A stretch of 64,000 nucleotides of DNA from the NCBI GenBank assembly GCA_022641835.1, contig CP048717.1, positions 62,001 through 126,000 of the forward strand. The letters are read 5' to 3'. Positions 6,407-50,882 of this stretch are shown in pieces. This stretch comes from Petasospora fabianii. Taxonomy: Eukaryota > Ascomycota > Saccharomycetes > Phaffomycetales > Wickerhamomycetaceae. A model generated the notes under the pieces. It ran no database searches, had not been told where the DNA came from, and saw only the letters and a list, made by a program, of their open reading frames with translations. A program made the position numbers and the translations under genes. How positions within the stretch are numbered: the first letter of the stretch is position 1; each line of letters begins with the position of its first letter.

Positions 6407-7575
6407 GCTGTTTATATGTATATGCTTCTATTTGGTAGCAAGACAAGAACACAGTTAAAGAGAGAGGTATGTGAGTGAATGGTGGAATGGGGGTATTAAT
6501 AGTATATGTACTATGGTTGAAGTAGGCGAAGTGGGCGAAGTCAAGGGGGGGGGGGGACTAAGGAGATCTGAACAGATACAACGGATGCTTAAGCCTTGTA
6601 GGATTAATCCCTGTGACTATGATAGTAATTTAAAGGAAGGGCAACTGAGAAATTGAATGGGCAGATGGACAACGATTGGCTTATGCGCAAGGCTTTGCGG
6701 TGAGATCGGGTCGCGCAGCTCTGGACACTTTGGGGCGCAGCCGATTGTTATGGTATGCTTCTGATATATGGACCAAGTGAAGCAGATGAACAGAGATAAA
6801 AGGTTTATGAGTTGGCCTCGGTTAGTTGATGAGGTGAGATAGTGTGTGGTTGAGGAGGAAAATGAACAACAAAACTCCGGATCAATTAAATATCGTCACT
6901 ATACATATAGGCGAAATGGTCTCGACGAGCTTCGCGAGACTTTGCTTTATAAATAGCTCTTGGCGACTGTGATGTAGTGGTTTTACATAGGTTTTATCTA
7001 TATGTATATAGAGTTATAGTATCTTTGTATCTTTGTATTAACTACCTCTATATCTTTATTCTGTTTGATTCCCTTACAAAAGCAGTATATCTTTATAACT
7101 AAACTACCATCACTCCGCTTCGCTGCTTCCGTCAGACGCGTCCGGGGGAAACTGCAAGGGGCAGTGTCGAGCCACTTTATTGAGAAAAGGTTACAACATA
7201 TGATTTATGTACAATAAACACTAAAGAGTCTGATACATCACATATCAGAACTTAATCTTCACACCTTTTATCAACAGATCAACTTTTCTCGTAACTTTAG
7301 ATAGTTCAGAAACAATATACTTTGTACTCCAACAACATGCATTTTGCTTATGTAAGCCTATTATTGTTTAAAGGTTACCCGGAGAAGTGTCACATGATTG
7401 ATCACGTTATCACGTGATCACGTGATAACGGTGATAACGTTCTAGACAACCATGAGTTATGTAATGGCTTATCTACACTAGTTCTGAGCCTGACTCTATA
7501 TATCCATGGTCATTCATTTCGTATCTCATTATCATATTAGTCTCTCTTGTCAGCTTGTGGATCAAGCAGAATCCA
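6407..7575. other. gene-poor intergenic region
   Basis: 1.17 kb with no convincing coding frame. It holds an 11-G homopolymer near 6546, a stem-loop with GTCTCG/CGAGAC arms (6919-6924 and 6935-6940), a TATAAAT box near 6947, AT-rich DNA at 7000-7100, one ACGCGT site at 7136-7141 and a 26-bp palindrome at 7405-7430. No tRNA or known ncRNA signature was recognised. Confidence 0.6.
7405..7430. promoter_or_regulatory. 26-bp perfect palindrome with two overlapping E-boxes
   Basis: The core CACGTGATCACGTG carries two CACGTG boxes and is extended on both sides by CGTTAT/ATAACG, so all 26 bp are self-complementary. It resembles a doubled Cbf1/Pho4-type site. It lies 145 bp past the 3' end of the coiled-coil gene and a kilobase from the MNN2 start, so its target is unclear. 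Confidence 0.5.
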
Positions 7576-8280
7576 TCAACGCTTATCACTGGCTTTGTTA
7601 TCCATCATCTGGTTCAACCTTTCAAGAAACTCCCTTGGAATTTCATAATCAACTGCGTCAGTCCCCCTCTGGTTCTCATTGCCATTCTCATTCGCATGCA
7701 TTTCTTCCAGTTTATCAACCTCTCTGACCTTTGCCTCACTCATATTCCTATCGCCAGTCACATACCGTATGTATCTCTCTTCTTCTTCTTCTTCTTCCTC
7801 CTCCTCCTCCGGTGTACTCTCCAACTTTGAAACTAACTTATTCACACCAACATCTCTCTTGATAGTCTCAAACTGTTGTCTCAATAACATCAGCTCCTCA
7901 CTGAACCTCATATCAAGATAATGCGTCTCGAGTTGTGTCTCTTGATATGTCTTGGCAACTGCTTGTATCGCTTCAATCGCATCTAATGCCTTTTCAAGTT
8001 CTTGTTGTTTACCCCAATTCGTAGTCCCTGCTGGTCCAAGTAGTGTTCGTTTAATATTGGATCGTATCGACTCACTATTGGGCACGGGCCGAGGTGCCAG
8101 TGGAGGTCGTGTACTCGTTGATATTGTCTTCTTTCTTGTTGTATTGTTCATACCACAACTGCTGAACTCTTCAATAACGTCAATCCAAACAGACATAACT
8201 CGGAGGACAGTACGTGTTATAAGTTGCTGACGGATGATTTTGGTTGAGGTAGGGTCCATTCTGGTGACAGACACAGACAT
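7576..8280 (-). CDS. unrecognised coiled-coil protein
   Basis: A 234-residue hydrophilic protein that I do not recognise. ATG codons at 8280 (MSVSVTR) and 8259 (MDPTST) are both possible starts. The N-terminal 35 residues look helical. A basic, Pro/Ser-rich linker follows, then a long heptad-like segment (about residues 90-155) ending in an 11-Glu run, then a charged C-terminus. Size, coiled coil and acidic tract would fit a small structural subunit, for example of a kinetochore or spindle complex, but no family motif proves this. A palindromic double MBF site about 255 bp upstream suggests G1/S expression. Confidence 0.7.
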   Translation of the reverse strand: MSVSVTRMDPTSTKIIRQQLITRTVLRVMSVWIDVIEEFSSCGMNNTTRKKTISTSTRPPLAPRPVPNSESIRSNIKRTLLGPAGTTNWGKQQELEKALDAIEAIQAVAKTYQETQLETHYLDMRFSEELMLLRQQFETIKRDVGVNKLVSKLESTPEEEEEEEEEEERYIRYVTGDRNMSEAKVREVDKLEEMHANENGNENQRGTDAVDYEIPREFLERLNQMMDNKASDKR

Positions 8281-8825: not shown

Positions 8826-10472
8826 TCACATATTCTCCATCACCATACCAGGTTGTCCCGGCACAACAGCTTCAATCACTTTACCTGTAACCCTTATCTC
8901 CCTCTCTTCACCAGTTATCACATCAAGACCAACCCTTTCACCAGGCTTAAAAGCAATCACAGTCATTGTCTCAACCTTAGCAAACTGTGGAGCACGCTTT
9001 AAGTTCTGCCAGACATTCTTCACAGTTTCAATCTCATCAAAATTCAACTGTCTGTTCAACACCACCTCCTTGGGCTCTTTCTCCAATCTATGGATTAAAT
9101 GAGTGATGAATGGCATGGCTCGCTTCATATCCTCACCAATCCTCGACTTGATATAGGCGATATCACCAAGCTTATCTTCTTTGATCAGTTCACTAGTGAG
9201 CTCAACATACTGGGTTTGCCATTCAGGAAAACACTTAGCAATATAAATGGTGAGTTTAACAGGTTTCGAAATGTCAATTCCACAATCTATAGTCCCATTA
9301 GTTTCCTTCTTTGTCTTCCTTTGCTTCTTTTTCAACTTCTCACCTTCCAACTCACGAACACAGCGAAGAATATGACGGCAATAGTTTAACGAACCCAAGA
9401 TGGATTGATCAACTGGTTTCGTTGCCCTTGGGAACTTAGCATCCTGAACAGTACTATGATGGCCTAAAACCTCTCTCCAGATGAACTCACTGAAATGTGG
9501 AGTAATAGGAGCCATCAGCAGACACTGAGTCTCAATATACTTCATCACCAGTTCCTTATGCATGGGCATATCCAACGCTTCCCTGTAAAAATCTCTAGCT
9601 GATTGATAGTCAAAGAACCCAGTCTTCAACGCCGCCTTATAGTTCGTCTCTTCAAAGTTTTGATAAGTCTTTTCGATCAACTCATTCATCTCATGATCAA
9701 ACGCCACATCCAAAAATTCGAGCTCACCAGTCCTCAAGAAATCACTCTTCTCCACAACAGTCTCGGCCCACTCCTTAAGCGTATGCAATCTCAATACAGC
9801 CGAATTTGCAGTGGCTTCTTCGAAATTAGCATCAACAAGAGTATCGCCAGCATTGGCAAATGCCATACGACTAGCATCTGCACCAAATTTCTCCACAACT
9901 TCCTTTAATGTCATAAAATTGCCTGTGGATTTGGACATCTTCTTGTTGTTAAGAAGCAAATGGCCATCGACTCGAATACCTTTTGGCCAGAGTTGTGGCT
10001 GAAATATGGCAGTATGAATGTAAATGAAAAAAGTCAAATGGTTGGGGATCAAGTCTTTACCAGAAATTGACACGTCAAGGGGATAGAAATACTCAAACTC
10101 TCTTCTCAAGTGTTGTAATGCCTCTTCTGAGATTTTGGTGGTGAGTGAGGAATATGATTTACGAAGAAAGATATAATCCCATATCTCATCCGTCATCTGT
10201 TCCGGCTTGACTCCATATCGTCCCAGCTCTTTGCCATGGAAATCTGTGTGAAGCAAATGACAAACTGTATAGTACGCCTGATAGATTGTAGAGTCAGATA
10301 AGGACTCCACAAGCAAGGATTCATCCCATGGCAACTTCGTACCCAATCCATATGAACGACACACTGCCCAGTTTTTCAACCACTCCAACACACCTTCAAA
10401 TGCATTCTTGGTCTGTAGTGACATTGTTTCCATCAACTCAAGCGCCTCATGAACCATCGATCTCCATTCCGG

Positions 10473-10627
10473 CTCACCATAATCAACGTACCACTGGTCT
10501 TCAAGAGAAACAATACAAGAATCCCCTGAACGAGAGATAACAACGGACTCTGGCTCAGAGTAGACAAAGGCATCACCAGACTTGATCAAGTCAGCCTTAA
10601 CCTTTGGCTTGGCAACCTCAACCTTCT
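10473..10627 (-). repeat. second near-identical block, matching 15544-15698
   Basis: 155 bp of the paralog nearly identical to CDC60 and equal in length. It is separated from arm A by a 208-bp indel-rich island (230 bp in CDC60). Sequence divergence resumes abruptly after it. Confidence 0.85.
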
Positions 10628-10835
10628 TACACTGACATGGACATGATACTGTGCAAAGCCTCCTTGCAGGCAGCTTCCCCTTGGTAGCCAACTGGACAGA
10701 GTCCTTTGAGATTGATCTTGAGCTGCCACAAGAACTCTCGGCACATGAGTCACCGTACTTCTCGGTCTTGATGATTGAAACAAACTCATGACCTACTTCT
10801 TCAATACCACAGTGCGCTGGCTTGCGCTGAGTCCT

Positions 10836-11953
10836 GAGGTGATGTAGTCATCTGGGGAGTCTGATGGGACACAGGTGACCACACCGGTACCCTTAGTGGC
10901 GAGAACGGTCTCCATAGGAAGGACTCTAAGCTCGTCATACACGGAGAGTGGAGCCTTGATCTTGGAACCAATCAACTTCTTACCGTTGACAGTGGTGGTT
11001 GGCTTGTATGATCCACGCTGTGGGGTGATCTTCTGGTAGGACATGTTCTTGTAGGCACGCTCGGTGGTGATGTAGTACTCCTTACCGTTGTCGAAGATAC
11101 CGTAGTCAATCTTTGGGGAGACGAAACAACATGTCTGACCGTACATGGTCTCTGGTCTGAGGGTAGCAGCAACGAGGTACATTGGCTTGGACTTGTCGAG
11201 AGGCTCAGCGACAGATGGGTCGGCGAACTCGGTGATCTGGATCTTGATACCGGTGTACTCCTGTGGAGTGACACCTTCACCAGACTGTCTATCGTGGTCC
11301 ATACATGGCTGACCATCTTTCTCGGAGTAGATGGTGTATCTCTCACCGAATTTGATTCTACCAATGTCCTTAAGTCTCTGCACCTGCCATCTGACGAACT
11401 GGTCGTAAAATGGGTTCATGTCGGTGGTGATCATCGAACGACGCCAGTCGATACGGGCACCGAACTTGTTACAGTCCTTCTGACAAAGAGGTGGGAAGTA
11501 CTCGAGCCAGTAGTAAGGATCAGCGAATTTGTAGAGGTCCTCCCTCTTGATACCGAGCTGGAGCATAATCTCGAACTGGTACTTACCACGGCCCTGCTTG
11601 GCAGCGGCCTTGGTCTTCTTACCCTTGAACTTACCGTCCTGAGACTGTGGCTTGTTGGCCTCCTTTGGCTTCTCCTCCTCAGCCTCTTCCTCCTCCTCTG
11701 GAACATTGGAGTAGTCCTTACCAAACATCTCGGCCTCACGGACCAACTTGTCGGCACAGGCCTTGATTGGCATACCAGTACAGTGGAAACCCAATGGGAA
11801 AAGGGCACGCTTACCTCTCATTCTTTCGAAACCAACGGAGAACTCAACCTTGGACAAAGTGAAACAGTGACCGGCATGGAGAACACCGTTCATATATGGG
11901 TAGGCCATCGATGACATGAACTTTGGGTACTTCTCGTGGAGCTCTTCTATAGG
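10836..11953 (-). repeat. inverted repeat arm A, near-identical to 14196-15313
   Basis: 1,118 bp in the LeuRS paralog matching an equal-length block in CDC60 in opposite orientation, with only scattered substitutions and no indels seen. The arms are separated by about 2.2 kb containing CDC31. Confidence 0.9.
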
Positions 11954-12067
11954 TGTGTCATCCCCTAATTCCGATAGAGAGGGCGCATCCAGCTCAAACA
12001 CATACTCTTGGGCCCATAATTTCTGATATTTATCCTCAATGGCAATGAGAATATCACGGCGAAGTGT

Positions 12068-12205
12068 CTGAGTGTAGCTGTTAGTAACGTGTGTAGAGAG
12101 ATCATCGTGTGACTGTCAGGAGTGAACACTGAGGGCATCAAGGGGTTGGATCTAGAGGACTCAGATCTCGCCAATGTTGAGGTACGCGGAGGTGAAAAAA
12201 CTCAC
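12068..12205 (-). other. intron of LeuRS paralog
   Basis: Donor GTGAGT after codon 12, branch point TTACTAAC and acceptor CAG (138 nt). Joining gives ...GLEN|TLRRDILIAIE, which aligns with ...LENTSRRDALIEIE of CDC60, so the intron predates the duplication. Confidence 0.85.
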
Positions 12206-12241
12206 GTTCTCTAGACCAGACTTGGCTGGAGAGTCAGTCAT

Positions 12242-12792
12242 ATGGTGGAATGGTCTCTGCTGTCCTTGTGTATGGAAGCTAGCTGTGTGGTTGTAGATGG
12301 AGGAGAGTAGACGCGTTGTTTCTACGATAATAATATTGAGGTTGAGGGCACTATCTCTTGAGTGATCTCAAGCCGATCACCAGCACCTCTTAGAAGGCAT
12401 TAAGCACTCTTAAAGGAAACATGTGATAGCCTGATTGCTCTCTGGGGCAAGAGGTGAAAAGCTGCAAGACGACAACTAACCACTTCCCTCCGTTGGCTAT
12501 CCTGAGAGCTCAGCTCTTCCGATGCGGAGTCCCGAGATCCTCACGTAGACGTTCCCATCTTACTGCATTTTCATGACCCCACAACTCTGGCTTTACTACT
12601 CTTCATGAGAGAATTAACAGTAAGTTCAACGTACATAGTCATTAGTAAAAAGGAGCAACAACAAAACCAAAGAAGACGAGAGGAACGAGGGGCTCCCTCG
12701 GCGCTAGAATACAAAAAGATAACGGCAAATAAGCATCTGAAGCCAGTCCATAAAGATGATAAAGCGGTGATGGTGTGTGAGTGTATGTGTGA
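12242..12792. other. intergenic between LeuRS paralog and CDC31
   Basis: 551 bp with no supported gene. It contains an ACGCGT site at 12311-12316, 70 bp upstream of the paralog start, and an imperfect stem GTGATC/GATCAC near 12361-12379. The remainder is the 3' flank of CDC31. Confidence 0.5.
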
Positions 12793-13433
12793 TCAATTGT
12801 CCGTACAAATGGCAATGAATTCTTCCTCGTTGACTGTTCAAAAGGTAGTTAGTAAGAAGTTTAGAATAAGGTCTTTGAGGCTTGGACGATTACTTACTCT
12901 CACCATCATTATCGAGGTCAAACTCATCAATCATAGCTCTGAGTTCCTCATCTGTGAGGTTTTCTCCAAGCTCCTTGGCCACTCTCCGGAGATTTCTAAG
13001 AGAGATCTTTCCAGTGTTATCATCATCGAAGAGTCTGAATGCACGGCGGATTTCCTCTAATGGGTCTCTATTGAGCACTTTTTCGCCCACTGTTTCAACA
13101 GGTTAGTATTCATGTCTTGTCTTCAATCTCTGCGATCAAACAACATTACTTACTGACAGCGAAGAAGTCTTCGTAGTGCATCTGGTTTCTGTCATCACGA
13201 TCATATTCTCTAATGAGTTCAAGCACCTCCTGTTTCGAGTATTCAAACCCAAGGGCACGAATCGCCACTTTGAGCTCATGATAGTCCAAGTATCCGTCAT
13301 TATTCATATCAAACAAATTGAAGGCCTCGCGGATCTCTTGTTTCTGCTCTTCGAGTAGCTCCTTCTTAAGCTGTGATGGGGCACGCGTCTGCGCGGTGTT
13401 CACGTGCGCTCTGCGCGGCAATGGGAGAGACAT
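12793..13433 (-). CDS. CDC31: centrin, spindle pole body duplication
   Basis: Calcium-binding centrin needed for spindle pole body duplication and nuclear pore function. Three exons (13154-13433, 12898-13089, 12793-12833) join to a 170-residue protein with four EF-hand regions. Loop 1 begins [12 protein letters not shown] and the last is DLDNDGEINEEE. The joined ends [15 protein letters not shown] and [18 protein letters not shown] match yeast Cdc31 closely, which fixes both introns. The basic N-terminal extension is typical of centrins. An ACGCGT box at 13518-13523, 85 bp before the start, fits G1/S expression. It is divergent from CDC60. Confidence 0.95.
12834..12897 (-). other. CDC31 intron 2
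   Basis: 64 nt, donor GTAAGT, branch TTACTAAC, acceptor CAG. Its removal restores the C-terminal IAICTDN end of centrin. Confidence 0.88.
13090..13153 (-). other. CDC31 intron 1
   Basis: 64 nt, donor GTAAGT, branch ATACTAAC, acceptor CAG. Splicing joins FFAV to MGEKVL in the conserved linker between EF-hands 2 and 3. Confidence 0.88.
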
Positions 13434-13990
13434 TTTGAAAGATGAAAGTCGATATTAAGGCAAATGGGTATCGACGACAACGATTGTGTATCGATCAGAG
13501 ACGGATCAGGATGAATAACGCGTGATTGAGGGACAGTCAAATGATCGATCACAGTTAAGAGCGCGTGGAGTAGATGCGCCAACTTTTTCGTGTCAGAGCC
13601 AACTCGCGAACCTGGTAGGCGACACATCAAAGAGCACAATGCCCATCTGTCACCAAAAATGCGGCTAGATAAGGGTCTTCAAAGACCTATTAGCTGGTCT
13701 GGGGTGTGACTTGCTACTAGTTAACGTTGTATGCTGCTAATATCATCAAAAGTTACAAATATTTCACTGTAGTGAAGAAGTAGTAGAGCTATTTGAATGT
13801 TCGATGTGGCCCCTAACACATTACCCGGCACTAAAAGAACCTGAGTCGCTACTGTGAAAAAGGCGCCATCGCACACGAAAGACCGACGTTTACCATCAGA
13901 TGCCCCATATTACCGCCCCATCATTTGCTTCTTCTGTGACTTGAAAACTTGTGTTCCATACACACTCTATAGCTACTGAAAACTGCAGAA
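13434..13990. promoter_or_regulatory. CDC31/CDC60 divergent promoter
   Basis: 557 bp shared by the two divergent genes. It contains ACGCGT at 13518-13523 near CDC31 and a Gcn4-like TGAGTCG near 13843. A perfect Gcn4 core TGAGTCA lies just inside the CDC60 intron at about 14045. Use of these sites is inferred. No other gene is seen. Confidence 0.45.
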
Positions 13991-16900
13991 ATGTCTGAGG
14001 CTAAGACGATCGTCCTCGAGAATGTGAGTGGCTTTGTGATCGCATGAGTCAGCGAACAATTTACTAACATCATATCACCAGACCTCGAGAAGAGATGCCC
14101 TCATCGAGATTGAGCAGAAGTACCAGAAGATCTGGGCCGATGAGAAGGTGTTCGAGCAGAACGCCCCAACCTTAGAGGAGGAGAAGGTTGAGATCCCTAT
14201 CGAAGAGCTCCACGAGAAATACCCAAAGTTCATGTCATCGATGGCCTATCCATACATGAACGGTGTTCTCCACGCCGGTCACTGTTTCACTTTGTCCAAG
14301 GTTGAGTTCTCCGTTGGTTTCGAAAGAATGAGAGGTAAGCGTGCCCTTTTCCCATTGGGTTTCCACTGTACTGGTATGCCAATCAAGGCCTGTGCCGACA
14401 AGTTGGTCCGTGAGGCCGAGATGTTTGGTAAGGACTACTCCAATGTTCCAGAGGAGGAGGAAGAGGTTGAGGAGGAGAAGCCAAAGGAGGCTAACAAGCC
14501 ACAGTCTCAGGACGGTAAGTTCAAGGGTAAGAAGACCAAGGCCGCTGCCAAGCAGGGCCGTGGTAAGTACCAGTTCGAGATTATGCTCCAGCTCGGTATC
14601 AAGAGGGAGGACCTCTACAAATTCGCCGACCCTTACTACTGGCTCGAGTACTTCCCACCTCTTTGTCAGAAGGACTGTGACAAGTTTGGTGCCCGTATCG
14701 ACTGGCGTCGTTCGATGATCACCACCGACATGAACCCATTCTACGACCAGTTCGTCAGATGGCAGGTGCAGAGACTTAAGGACATTGGCAGAATCAAATT
14801 CGGTGAAAGATACACCATCTACTCCGAGAAAGATGGTCAGCCATGTATGGACCACGACAGACAGTCTGGTGAAGGTGTTACTCCACAGGAGTACACCGGT
14901 ATCAAGATCCAGATCACCGAGTTCGCCGACCCATCTGTCGCTGAGCCTCTTGATAAGTCCAAGCCAGTGTACCTCGTTGCTGCTACCCTCAGACCAGAGA
15001 CCATGTACGGTCAGACATGTTGTTTCGTCTCCCCAAAGATTGACTACGGTATCTTCGACAACGGTAAGGAGTACTACATCACCACCGAGCGTGCCTACAA
15101 GAACATGTCCTACCAGAAGATCACCCCACAGCGTGGATCATACAAGCCAACCACCACTGTCAACGGTAAGAAGTTGATTGGTTCCAAGATCAAGGCTCCA
15201 CTCTCCGTGTATGACGAGCTTAGAGTCCTTCCTATGGAGACCGTTCTCGCCACTAAGGGTACCGGTGTGGTAACCTGTGTGCCATCTGACTCCCCAGATG
15301 ACTACATTACCTCCAAGGATCTTCAGCACAAGCCAGAGTACTACGGTATTGAGAAGGAGTGGGTCAAGGAGTTTGTTCCAATCATCAAGACCGAGAAGTA
15401 CGGTGACTCATGTGCCGAGTTCTTGTGTAAGCAGCTCAAGATCCAGTCTCCAAAGGACTCTGTCCAGTTGGCCACTGCCAAGGAGGCTGCCTACAAGGAG
15501 GGCTTCTACAACGGTATCATGTCCATCGGCCAGTACAAGGGTGAGAAGGTTGAGGTTGCCAAGCCAAAGGTTAAGGCTGACTTGATCAAGTCTGGTGATG
15601 CCTTTGTCTACTCTGAGCCAGAGTCCGTTGTTATCTCTCGTTCAGGTGATTCTTGTATTGTTTCTCTTGAAGACCAGTGGTACGTTGACTACGGTGAGGA
15701 GGAATGGAAGTCTCAGGCTGTTGAGGCTCTGGAAAACATGAACACTTTCACCTCTGAAACCAAGAATGCCTTTGAGGGTGTCTTGGACTGGTTGAAGAAC
15801 TGGGCCGTATGTCGTACTTACGGTTTGGGTACCAAGTTGCCATGGGATGAGAAGTACCTTGTTGAGTCCCTTTCTGACTCTACCATCTACCAGGCCTACT
15901 ACACCATCTGCCACTTGTTGCACACTGACTACTATGGTAAGGAACTTGGTAAGTATGGTATCAAGCCTGAGCAGATGACTAGTGACGTCTTTGACTACAT
16001 CTTCCTGAGAAAGGATGACATCAAGACTGATATTCCAGTTGAGGCTCTTCAAGTTTTGAGAAGAGAGTTTGAGTACTTCTATCCATTGGATGTCTCTATC
16101 TCTGGTAAGGACTTGATTCCAAACCACTTGACCTTCTTCATCTACACACACACTGCTATCTTCCCAAAGAAGTTCTGGCCAGGTGGTATCCGTGTCAACG
16201 GTCACTTGCTCCTCAATAACAACAAGATGTCCAAGTCTACCGGTAACTTTATGACTTTGGAGCAGGTTGTTGAGAAGTTTGGTGCCGATGCCTCTCGTAT
16301 CGCTTTGGCTGATGCTGGTGACACCGTTGAGGACGCTAACTTTGAGGAGTCCAGTGCTAACGCTGCTATCCTGCGTTTGACCACTTTGAAGGAGTGGGCT
16401 GAGGATGCCGTCAAGAAGATTGACACCTTCAGATCTGGTGAGTACAACTTCTTCGACTCTGCCTTCGAGAACGAGTTGAACCAGTTGATCGAGGAGACTT
16501 ACACTCACTACGACCAGACCAACTACAAGGCCGCTTTGAAGACTGGTTTGTTCGACTACCAGACCGCTCGTGACTACTACCGTGAGGCTTCTACCTCTAT
16601 GCACAAGGACTTGGTCCTCCGTTACATTGAGACACAAGCTTTGTTGTTGACTCCAGTGGCTCCTCACTTTGGTGAGTACATCTGGAGAGAGGTTTTGGGT
16701 AACAAGACCACTGTCCAGGATGCCAAGTTCCCAAGAGCTTCCAAGCCAGTTGATCTCTCTATCTCTGAGTCCTTGGAGTACATCCGTTCCTTGTCTCGTT
16801 CCATTCGTGAGACTGAGGGTTCCTTGTTGAAGAAGAAGAAGGGTGGTAAGCCAGCTGACCTTGATCAGTCCAAGCCGGCCAAGTTGACCATCTTCATCTC

Positions 16901-17312
16901 TGAGTCCTTCCCAGAATGGCAGAACAACTACATCGAGTTGGTTCGCCAGTTGTTCGAGAAGCAGACTCTGGATGACAACAAGGTTATCAAGGAGGCTGTT
17001 GGTAAGGACATGAAGCGCGCTATGCCATTTATCTCTAACTTGAAGGTCCGTTTGACTAAGGAGTCACCATCCGTTGTCTTCAACAGAGAGTTGAACTTCT
17101 CCGAGGTTGATACCGTCAAGACTGCCATTGATAACATCAAGCGTGCTGCTTCTGCCATCAAGGTTGAGGAGATCCAAGTCATTGCCTTCCAGAACGGTGC
17201 CAAGGTTGGTAAGGATGTCTCCACTGGTGAGGAGGTTCCAATCACTATCACTGGTAAGATTATCGACTCTGCCGTCCCAGGTCAGCCAGGTTTGTTGATG
17301 GAGAATATCTAA
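13991..17312 (+). CDS. CDC60: cytosolic leucyl-tRNA synthetase
   Basis: Class I synthetase that charges tRNA-Leu in the cytosol. Exon 1 (13991-14023) and exon 2 (14082-17312) give 1,087 residues, close to the 1,090 of S. cerevisiae Cdc60. The signature HAGH is at 75-78 and KMSKS begins at K726. The central part carries the CP1 editing domain. An acidic/basic eukaryotic insert (EEEEEVEEEKPK, then KKTKAAAK) follows the first motif. Codon use is strongly biased toward AAG, GGT and TTG, as in highly expressed genes. The start lies before the intron; exon 2 alone would lack the conserved SRRDALIEIEQKYQ helix. It shares a near-identical inverted block with the broken paralog at 8.8-12.2 kb. Confidence 0.97.
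14024..14081 (+). other. CDC60 intron
   Basis: 58 nt, donor GTGAGT after codon 11, branch TTACTAAC at 14061-14068, acceptor CAG. It contains a TGAGTCA Gcn4 core. The position is conserved in the paralog. Confidence 0.9.
14196..15313 (+). repeat. inverted repeat arm B, near-identical to 10836-11953
   Basis: 1,118 bp inside CDC60 pairing with arm A. Equal length without indels in both copies, and shared codon choice typical of CDC60, point to CDC60 as the conversion donor. Confidence 0.9.
15544..15698 (+). repeat. partner of the block at 10473-10627
   Basis: 155 bp of CDC60 nearly identical to the paralog in inverted orientation. Outside it, toward the 3' end, the two genes differ at roughly one residue in three. 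Confidence 0.85.
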
Positions 17313-50302: not shown

Positions 50303-50882
50303 AGGTATACTCTACTCTTTATATTTATACTATTTATCTATATTCGAATCAATATTTATGATCCCAGCTATCAACCGTATTCATATGATTTACGATATTC
50401 AATATATAGATATATAACACATATATATATATGATATATAACACATATATATATATGATATATAATACATATATATGATATATATAGAGATCCACAATAT
50501 ATAACATATGATACCCAACATATGACACTTCCAGGGCCCAACTGAATAAAATAATGGCCGAATGGATTCTTATGCAGATCAAAGGCCGCCCGTTTCCGGC
50601 GCCGTCTCGGATGCCTCCCCGCATTTCACAATTCTCCCCCACACGAAGACCGTGGCCCCTTAATCAACCGAACAACTGCGCTTAATACTAAAAGAAGTGT
50701 CTGTGCGTGCACTGGTCAGTCCGGTCTCGGGAAAGCCTGTGTGTGATCTCTTGTCTGGGTCTTTTGTGTATCTGTGCCCTATATAAGTTGCTTTCCCCAC
50801 TAAATGTTCACCAGCACTGACCACTAGACTACTTGTGCACAGAGATAATTCTTCAATCTCCACCACTCACCACTCTCCACCG
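50303..50882. promoter_or_regulatory. PDH1 promoter
   Basis: 580 bp between CIT3 and PDH1. It holds an AT tandem repeat (50409-50476), then CCGTCTCGG at 50602-50610 and CCGGTCTCGG at 50721-50730, then TATATAAG at 50780-50787 about 100 bp before the start. The paired CCG/CGG triplets could bind a zinc-cluster propionate regulator. Confidence 0.5.
50409..50476. repeat. 24-bp AT-rich tandem repeat
   Basis: Two exact 24-bp units (50409-50432, 50433-50456), each starting GATATATAACAC, and a third, shortened 20-bp copy (50457-50476). The units are almost pure TA. Confidence 0.75.

Follow-up and report, generated by a model that had tools for sequence, protein, structure and literature searches.

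Partial Gene Conversion between Neighboring Inverted Leucyl-tRNA Synthetase Genes in Petasospora fabianii, with a Frame-Breaking Patch That Is Probably an Assembly Error

Introduction

Why do two old and strongly diverged genes for leucyl-tRNA synthetase (LeuRS), lying head to head, share one nearly identical block, and did the copy whose reading frame is broken beside that block remain a functional gene? The question is raised by a stretch of 64,000 nucleotides from Petasospora fabianii (assembly GCA_022641835.1, contig CP048717.1, positions 62,001 to 126,000; G+C content 44.5%), which we refer to as the window. It lies on contig 3 of a genome of 12,335,623 base pairs (bp) in 16 contigs. One LeuRS gene, copy A, occupies positions 12241–8826 of the window on the minus strand, and the other, copy B or CDC60, occupies 13991–17312 on the plus strand, with a centrin gene that we take to be CDC31 between them. 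We conclude that the shared block almost certainly arose by recent ectopic gene conversion between the old paralogs, most likely from CDC60 into A. Within the converted tract, A carries a short scrambled patch that breaks its frame and that is probably an error of the assembly.

Results

Base-by-base alignment of the two loci showed that A is not uniformly diverged from B along its length and that the borders of the similar tract are sharp. An initial annotation of this DNA had reported a pair of inverted 1,118-bp blocks, and the alignment bears this out: the main part of the tract in A (10836–11953, minus strand) and the corresponding block in B (14196–15313, plus strand) form a gapless alignment of 1,118 bp in which 23 bases differ. 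The "three residue differences" ascribed to the blocks are the protein count (V/A, D/N, and V/M); accordingly, 20 of the 23 base differences are synonymous and 3 are nonsynonymous. Their distribution over the three codon positions is 2/1/20, and 19 of them are transitions. The inner ends of the blocks are 2,242 bp apart, close to the 2.2 kb that had been estimated. Outside the tract, 33.1% of the aligned bases differ to the right (1,614 bp; 65% amino-acid identity) and 40.4% to the left (114 bp), in agreement with flanks described as about one third different.

Could such a block result from chance or from conservation of the protein? The lowest mismatch count per 1,000 aligned columns was 15, whereas the minimum over 2,000 permutations was 158; chance is therefore excluded as its origin. 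Protein conservation does not explain the block either because the proportion of synonymous differences (pS) between A and B is 0.086 within the tract, compared with 0.814 to its left and 0.782 to its right. Third codon positions hold 23 of the 46 differences in the left flank, 20 of the 23 in the main part of the tract, all 3 in its second part (described below), and 304 of the 535 in the right flank. When the genome was searched at the DNA level with the 1,118-bp block, these were the only two places found; in this search and in the protein search with B described below, only the best candidates were scored.

The pS counts given here and the constraint test below use the standard genetic code, and the values of pS and of its nonsynonymous counterpart, pN, are nearly the same under table 12. 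The latter, in which CTG encodes serine, was the code tried first, and it underlies several of the domain and protein searches and frame translations. It was ruled out because the other LeuRS copy has a leucine at 9 of the 10 sites where CTG could be aligned, from which it follows that this yeast reads CTG as leucine, as in the standard code. Candida auris was also rejected as the species: the DHFR of this genome scores ~141 bits against 8crh and 7zzx, which we take to be from C. auris, compared with 173 bits against 1ai9, which we take to be from C. albicans.

The tract extends beyond the 1,118-bp block. Past the scrambled patch, high identity returns at 10476–10627 of A (minus strand), a second part that matches B 15544–15695 with 3 differences in 152 bases, all of them synonymous. 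Because the identity returns there, the converted span amounts to ~1.48 kb (A 11953–10476). Consequently, the 1.1-kb block of the initial annotation was real in its identity but incomplete as a description, since the tract continues to ~10476 and the patch interrupts the duplicate in its assembled form. We also observed that the ends of the main part are richer in synonymous differences (5 in 78 bp at 11876–11953 and 4 in 42 bp at 10836–10877) than its core, whose 998 bp hold 14 differences, which would fit a younger conversion that partly renewed an older, longer one.

Which of the two genes was the donor? We counted preferred codons using the intact EF1alpha gene, which is independent of the LeuRS pair, as the reference. 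In B, preferred codons make up 40/47 (85%) of the part left of the tract, 311/356 (87%) of the tract, and 457/522 (88%) of the part to its right. In A, on the other hand, the corresponding values are 23/48 (48%), 312/355 (88%), and 274/521 (53%), the difference between the tract and the right part being highly significant (P 9e-30). The codon preference of the A tract thus equals that of B and is unlike that of A's own flanks, which is the signature of a donor sequence. Because the codons of the A tract are out of character for A but typical of B, the conversion most likely ran from CDC60 into its paralog, and taking the right part of B as the codon reference gave the same picture. The drop of pS to 0.086 and the B-type codons in the A tract support the earlier proposal that a codon-biased CDC60 had converted an older duplicate.

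The same proposal had held that so close an inverted pair could flip the CDC31 segment between its arms, and here the results point the other way. The codon usage of the 5' ends differs between A and B (P = 0.0002), whereas neither 5' end differs from the right part of its own gene (P = 0.55 and 0.65). Had the arms recombined by crossover, the 5' ends would have been exchanged, and yet each of them matches its own 3' half; the CDC31 spacer thus shows no net change of orientation in this one genome. Conversion without a lasting inversion fits this pairing of codon usage.

The event can be pictured as follows. The donor, CDC60, has a codon usage that suggests high expression, and the recipient would be the less codon-optimized A. 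Sequence from B would have overwritten most of the catalytic N-terminal half of A and its editing domain, whereas the upstream region, the first exon, the intron, the beginning of exon 2, and the C-terminal half would still be those of the original A.

Between the two parts of the tract, A carries a scrambled patch of 206 bp (10630–10835, minus strand), which corresponds to B 15314–15541. Its borders can be placed only to within a few bases, and one further mismatch lies at 10628. Depending on the alignment, the patch differs from B by 18 substitutions and 16 insertions or deletions (indels) or by 40 mismatches and 8 indels. The indels are mostly deletions in A (14 of 16 under each of four alignment settings and 19 of 21 under a fifth), and the differences are spread evenly over the codon positions (12/14/14). 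In a three-frame reading, the homologous frame shifts five times across the patch: the first frame of A closes at 10793, and a second is open from 10847 to the stop that ends at 8826. Because the patch indels break the frame, A as assembled encodes no continuous LeuRS. The patch falls inside the stretch that matches the editing-domain structure 2wfe.

Was A still functional after the conversion? If A had drifted neutrally since then, 25–38 nonsynonymous changes would be expected, whereas 3 were seen in both lineages combined; under neutrality of A, a count of 3 nonsynonymous among 23 has a binomial probability of 3e-7 to 4e-5. Furthermore, an in-frame alignment to B covers 549 residues in the right half of A and meets no stop. 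The absence of stops from these 549 codons (P 0.0006 to 0.18, depending on the assumed age and mutation bias) is moderate evidence for constraint. The relaxed constraint along the gene that would be expected of a long-standing pseudogene was not found in A. On these grounds, selection probably acted on A through most of the period after the conversion. Selection at the protein level would have continued after that event, and A probably served as a working second LeuRS. If so, the patch either is very recent or is absent from the genome itself.

We found a second frame break linked to a repeat in the same assembly. Of two near-identical copies of the EF1alpha gene, copy C3 is open over 465 codons, whereas copy C6, on contig 6, is open over 257. 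Over 1,186 columns, C6 has lost three single bases within G runs relative to C3 and carries one substitution, and these faults lie at about 1936–2121 of the matched contig 6 stretch. The deletions in C6 are probably assembly errors. Other gene families were largely intact: matches were free of stops, with long open frames, in 27 of 27 cases for the ADH family, 9 of 9 for HSP70, 2 of 2 for GAPDH, and 9 of 9 scored matches for sugar transporters (9 scored among 100 candidates), and 12 of 13 histone-fold matches had no internal stop.

CDC60 is intact, with 1088 codons including the stop. It comprises exon 1 (13991–14023), an intron of 58 bp (14024–14081, with TACTAAC at 14062), and exon 2 (14082–17312). 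In one frame, it contains the class I synthetase core, the editing domain, the anticodon-binding domain, and the LARS1 C-terminal domain. It matches the solved cytoplasmic LeuRS structures 6kid and 9w01 over nearly its full length, as well as the editing-domain structure 2wfe; we take these three structures to be of human and Candida albicans proteins. Copy A starts with an ATG at 12241, and its stop codon ends at 8826. Its exon 1 (12241–12206) is followed by an intron of 138 bp (12205–12068), whose place corresponds to that of the intron in B. The same LeuRS domains are found in A, not in one frame but as pieces that match separately, and its right half scores 408 bits against cytoplasmic LeuRS (9w01/6kid), nearly as high as the right half of B with 451 bits. 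A protein search of the genome with B returned A and B, plus three weak matches of 20–23 bits that we infer to be other class I synthetases.

The spacer between the inverted arms (11954–14195; 2,242 bp) holds the 5' ends of A and B and the centrin gene (12793–13433, minus strand). This gene has three exons, with introns at 13153–13090 and 12897–12834, and is open throughout; its EF hands were matched in Pfam, for which exon 1 was scanned. The CDC60 intron contains, at 14045, TGAGTCA, the motif of Gcn4 sites, which is the sole TGASTCA within 12001–14300. Elsewhere in the window, there is a near-perfect palindrome with CACGTG cores at 7401–7435, and a DNA search of the genome with 7201–7640 matched its own place only. 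An AT-rich run of near-tandem, self-complementary ATATAT units lies at 50395–50483.

Discussion

Is the scrambled patch a feature of the yeast or of its assembly? Because the adjoining tract is constrained and EF1alpha is broken in the same assembly, we favor the account in which a genuine conversion is combined with an assembly error in the patch, and we hold it to be probable, though well short of assured. It is also favored by the even spread of the patch differences over codon positions, by the predominance of deletions among the patch indels, and by the near absence of stops from matches in the five other gene families. The patch would then stem from faulty base calling or assembly that persisted in a near-identical inverted repeat, a setting in which short reads derived from A would align better to B. 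Inverted duplicates are reported to make nanopore base calling miss or misread bases (PMC7229812).

Several observations weigh against an error. A distance of 6 bp separates the start of the patch from a base at which A and B can be told apart, where polishing should have been feasible, and the adjoining 1,118 bp are without any indel. At least 34 events are packed into 206 bp, which is far denser than the three deletions in EF1alpha. The substitutions in the patch are rich in transitions (16/18, 14/18, or 28/40, depending on the alignment), as natural ones are; nanopore errors, too, favor transitions. Among near-identical pairs, only EF1alpha was also seen to be broken, and the histone H3 and H4 coding pairs, which are short and ~95% alike, are free of gaps. 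The one internal stop among the histone-fold matches is a TAA in a weak match (contig 2, 447324–447479), which could reflect an intron, chance, or another fault. Finally, the nature of the patch is read from the assembled letters of one genome.

If, on the contrary, the patch is real, A may have worked after the conversion and then been inactivated recently by a local burst of mutation, for example, through error-prone repair in the inverted repeat, which would make it a very young pseudogene. The frame is indeed broken in the sequence as given, the abundance of transitions resembles natural mutation, and no other obviously split gene is seen among the long open frames of the window, which were not checked gene by gene. 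We nevertheless consider such an inactivation unlikely, if worth keeping in view. It needs at least five frame changes and 18–40 substitutions within 206 bp, next to 1,118 bp with zero indels, and the same assembly contains the repeat-linked frame break in EF1alpha. Moreover, the patch shows no evidence of having been templated by another part of the window, where 1 of 180 A-specific 12-mers was found compared with ~1.4 expected. An earlier death of A, at or before the conversion, would be compatible with a broken frame alongside tract differences that are mainly synonymous, provided that these differences are old polymorphism of the donor allele and that A has drifted since. This is very improbable, given that 3 nonsynonymous changes are seen where 25–38 are predicted and that, as a more moderate argument, the right half is free of stops over its 549 codons; the donor-allele version also requires an allele divergence of ~2%.

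Could the patch be real and yet untranslated, with A still in use because the patch is spliced out or bypassed by a frameshift, or because the gene yields two half proteins that divide within the editing domain? The patch alone would then evolve freely while both halves stayed constrained, and the tract is in fact constrained on both sides of the patch, whereas the patch is not. Its load of substitutions is about that expected for neutral DNA since the conversion (a rough estimate from pS), and from 10847 down to 8826 the second frame stays open. The signals that such a gene would use are missing, however. An exact TACTAAC is present in each of the four introns identified at this locus (in A, B, and CDC31), whereas this motif was not found with up to one mismatch in 10590–10880, where the best candidate has two; four weak donor-like GTs occur in the patch region. 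A −1 slippery heptamer was not found in 10880–10790, which contains the overlap of the two frames, and the second half offers no in-frame ATG until beyond the tract. An untranslated patch thus appears improbable, and its specific form, in which A became split or newly interrupted by an intron in the editing domain after the conversion with both halves under selection, is if anything slightly more so. If true, it would give the yeast a second cytosolic LeuRS with altered proofreading. The converted tract itself might also be a mis-assembly, with reads from B placed at locus A, given that A is part of a repeat and that errors occur in another repeat of the assembly. We find this scarcely credible because 20 of the 23 differences are synonymous and in third positions, which is the mark of evolution and not of sequencing error, and because reads from B could hardly be joined to flanks of A that differ by a third.

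How does this locus, read as a true conversion with a probably erroneous patch, compare with known systems? As a cytosolic LeuRS (LARS1/CDC60), B is a full member of the family, and the right half of A is clearly a member as well, but A as assembled is broken in frame inside the editing domain. The EF1alpha pair resembles the LeuRS pair in that near-identical coding copies are present and one of them is frame-broken; unlike the LeuRS pair, its copies lie on different contigs and the damage consists of three one-base deletions only. Likewise, long-read errors in repeats, such as those reported for nanopore reads of inverted duplicates (PMC7229812), also fall in near-identical duplicated DNA, whereas the patch is short and dense rather than arm-wide. 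Frame breaks within near-identical repeats of this assembly should not be taken as biology without the reads.

Ectopic gene conversion between yeast paralogs is a general and well-known process. The LeuRS pair was not found described in the open-licence literature. It shares with such conversions the sharply bounded synonymous identity within old duplicates and the presence of donor codons in the recipient. It differs in that the two genes are inverted and only ~2.2 kb apart and in that only part of the 5' half of the recipient was converted. The result is a clear case of partial conversion, in which much of the catalytic and editing half of the paralog of an essential enzyme has been homogenized while the other half went on diverging. 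For neighboring inverted paralogs, the process is known, and the LeuRS pair is a clean new example of it.

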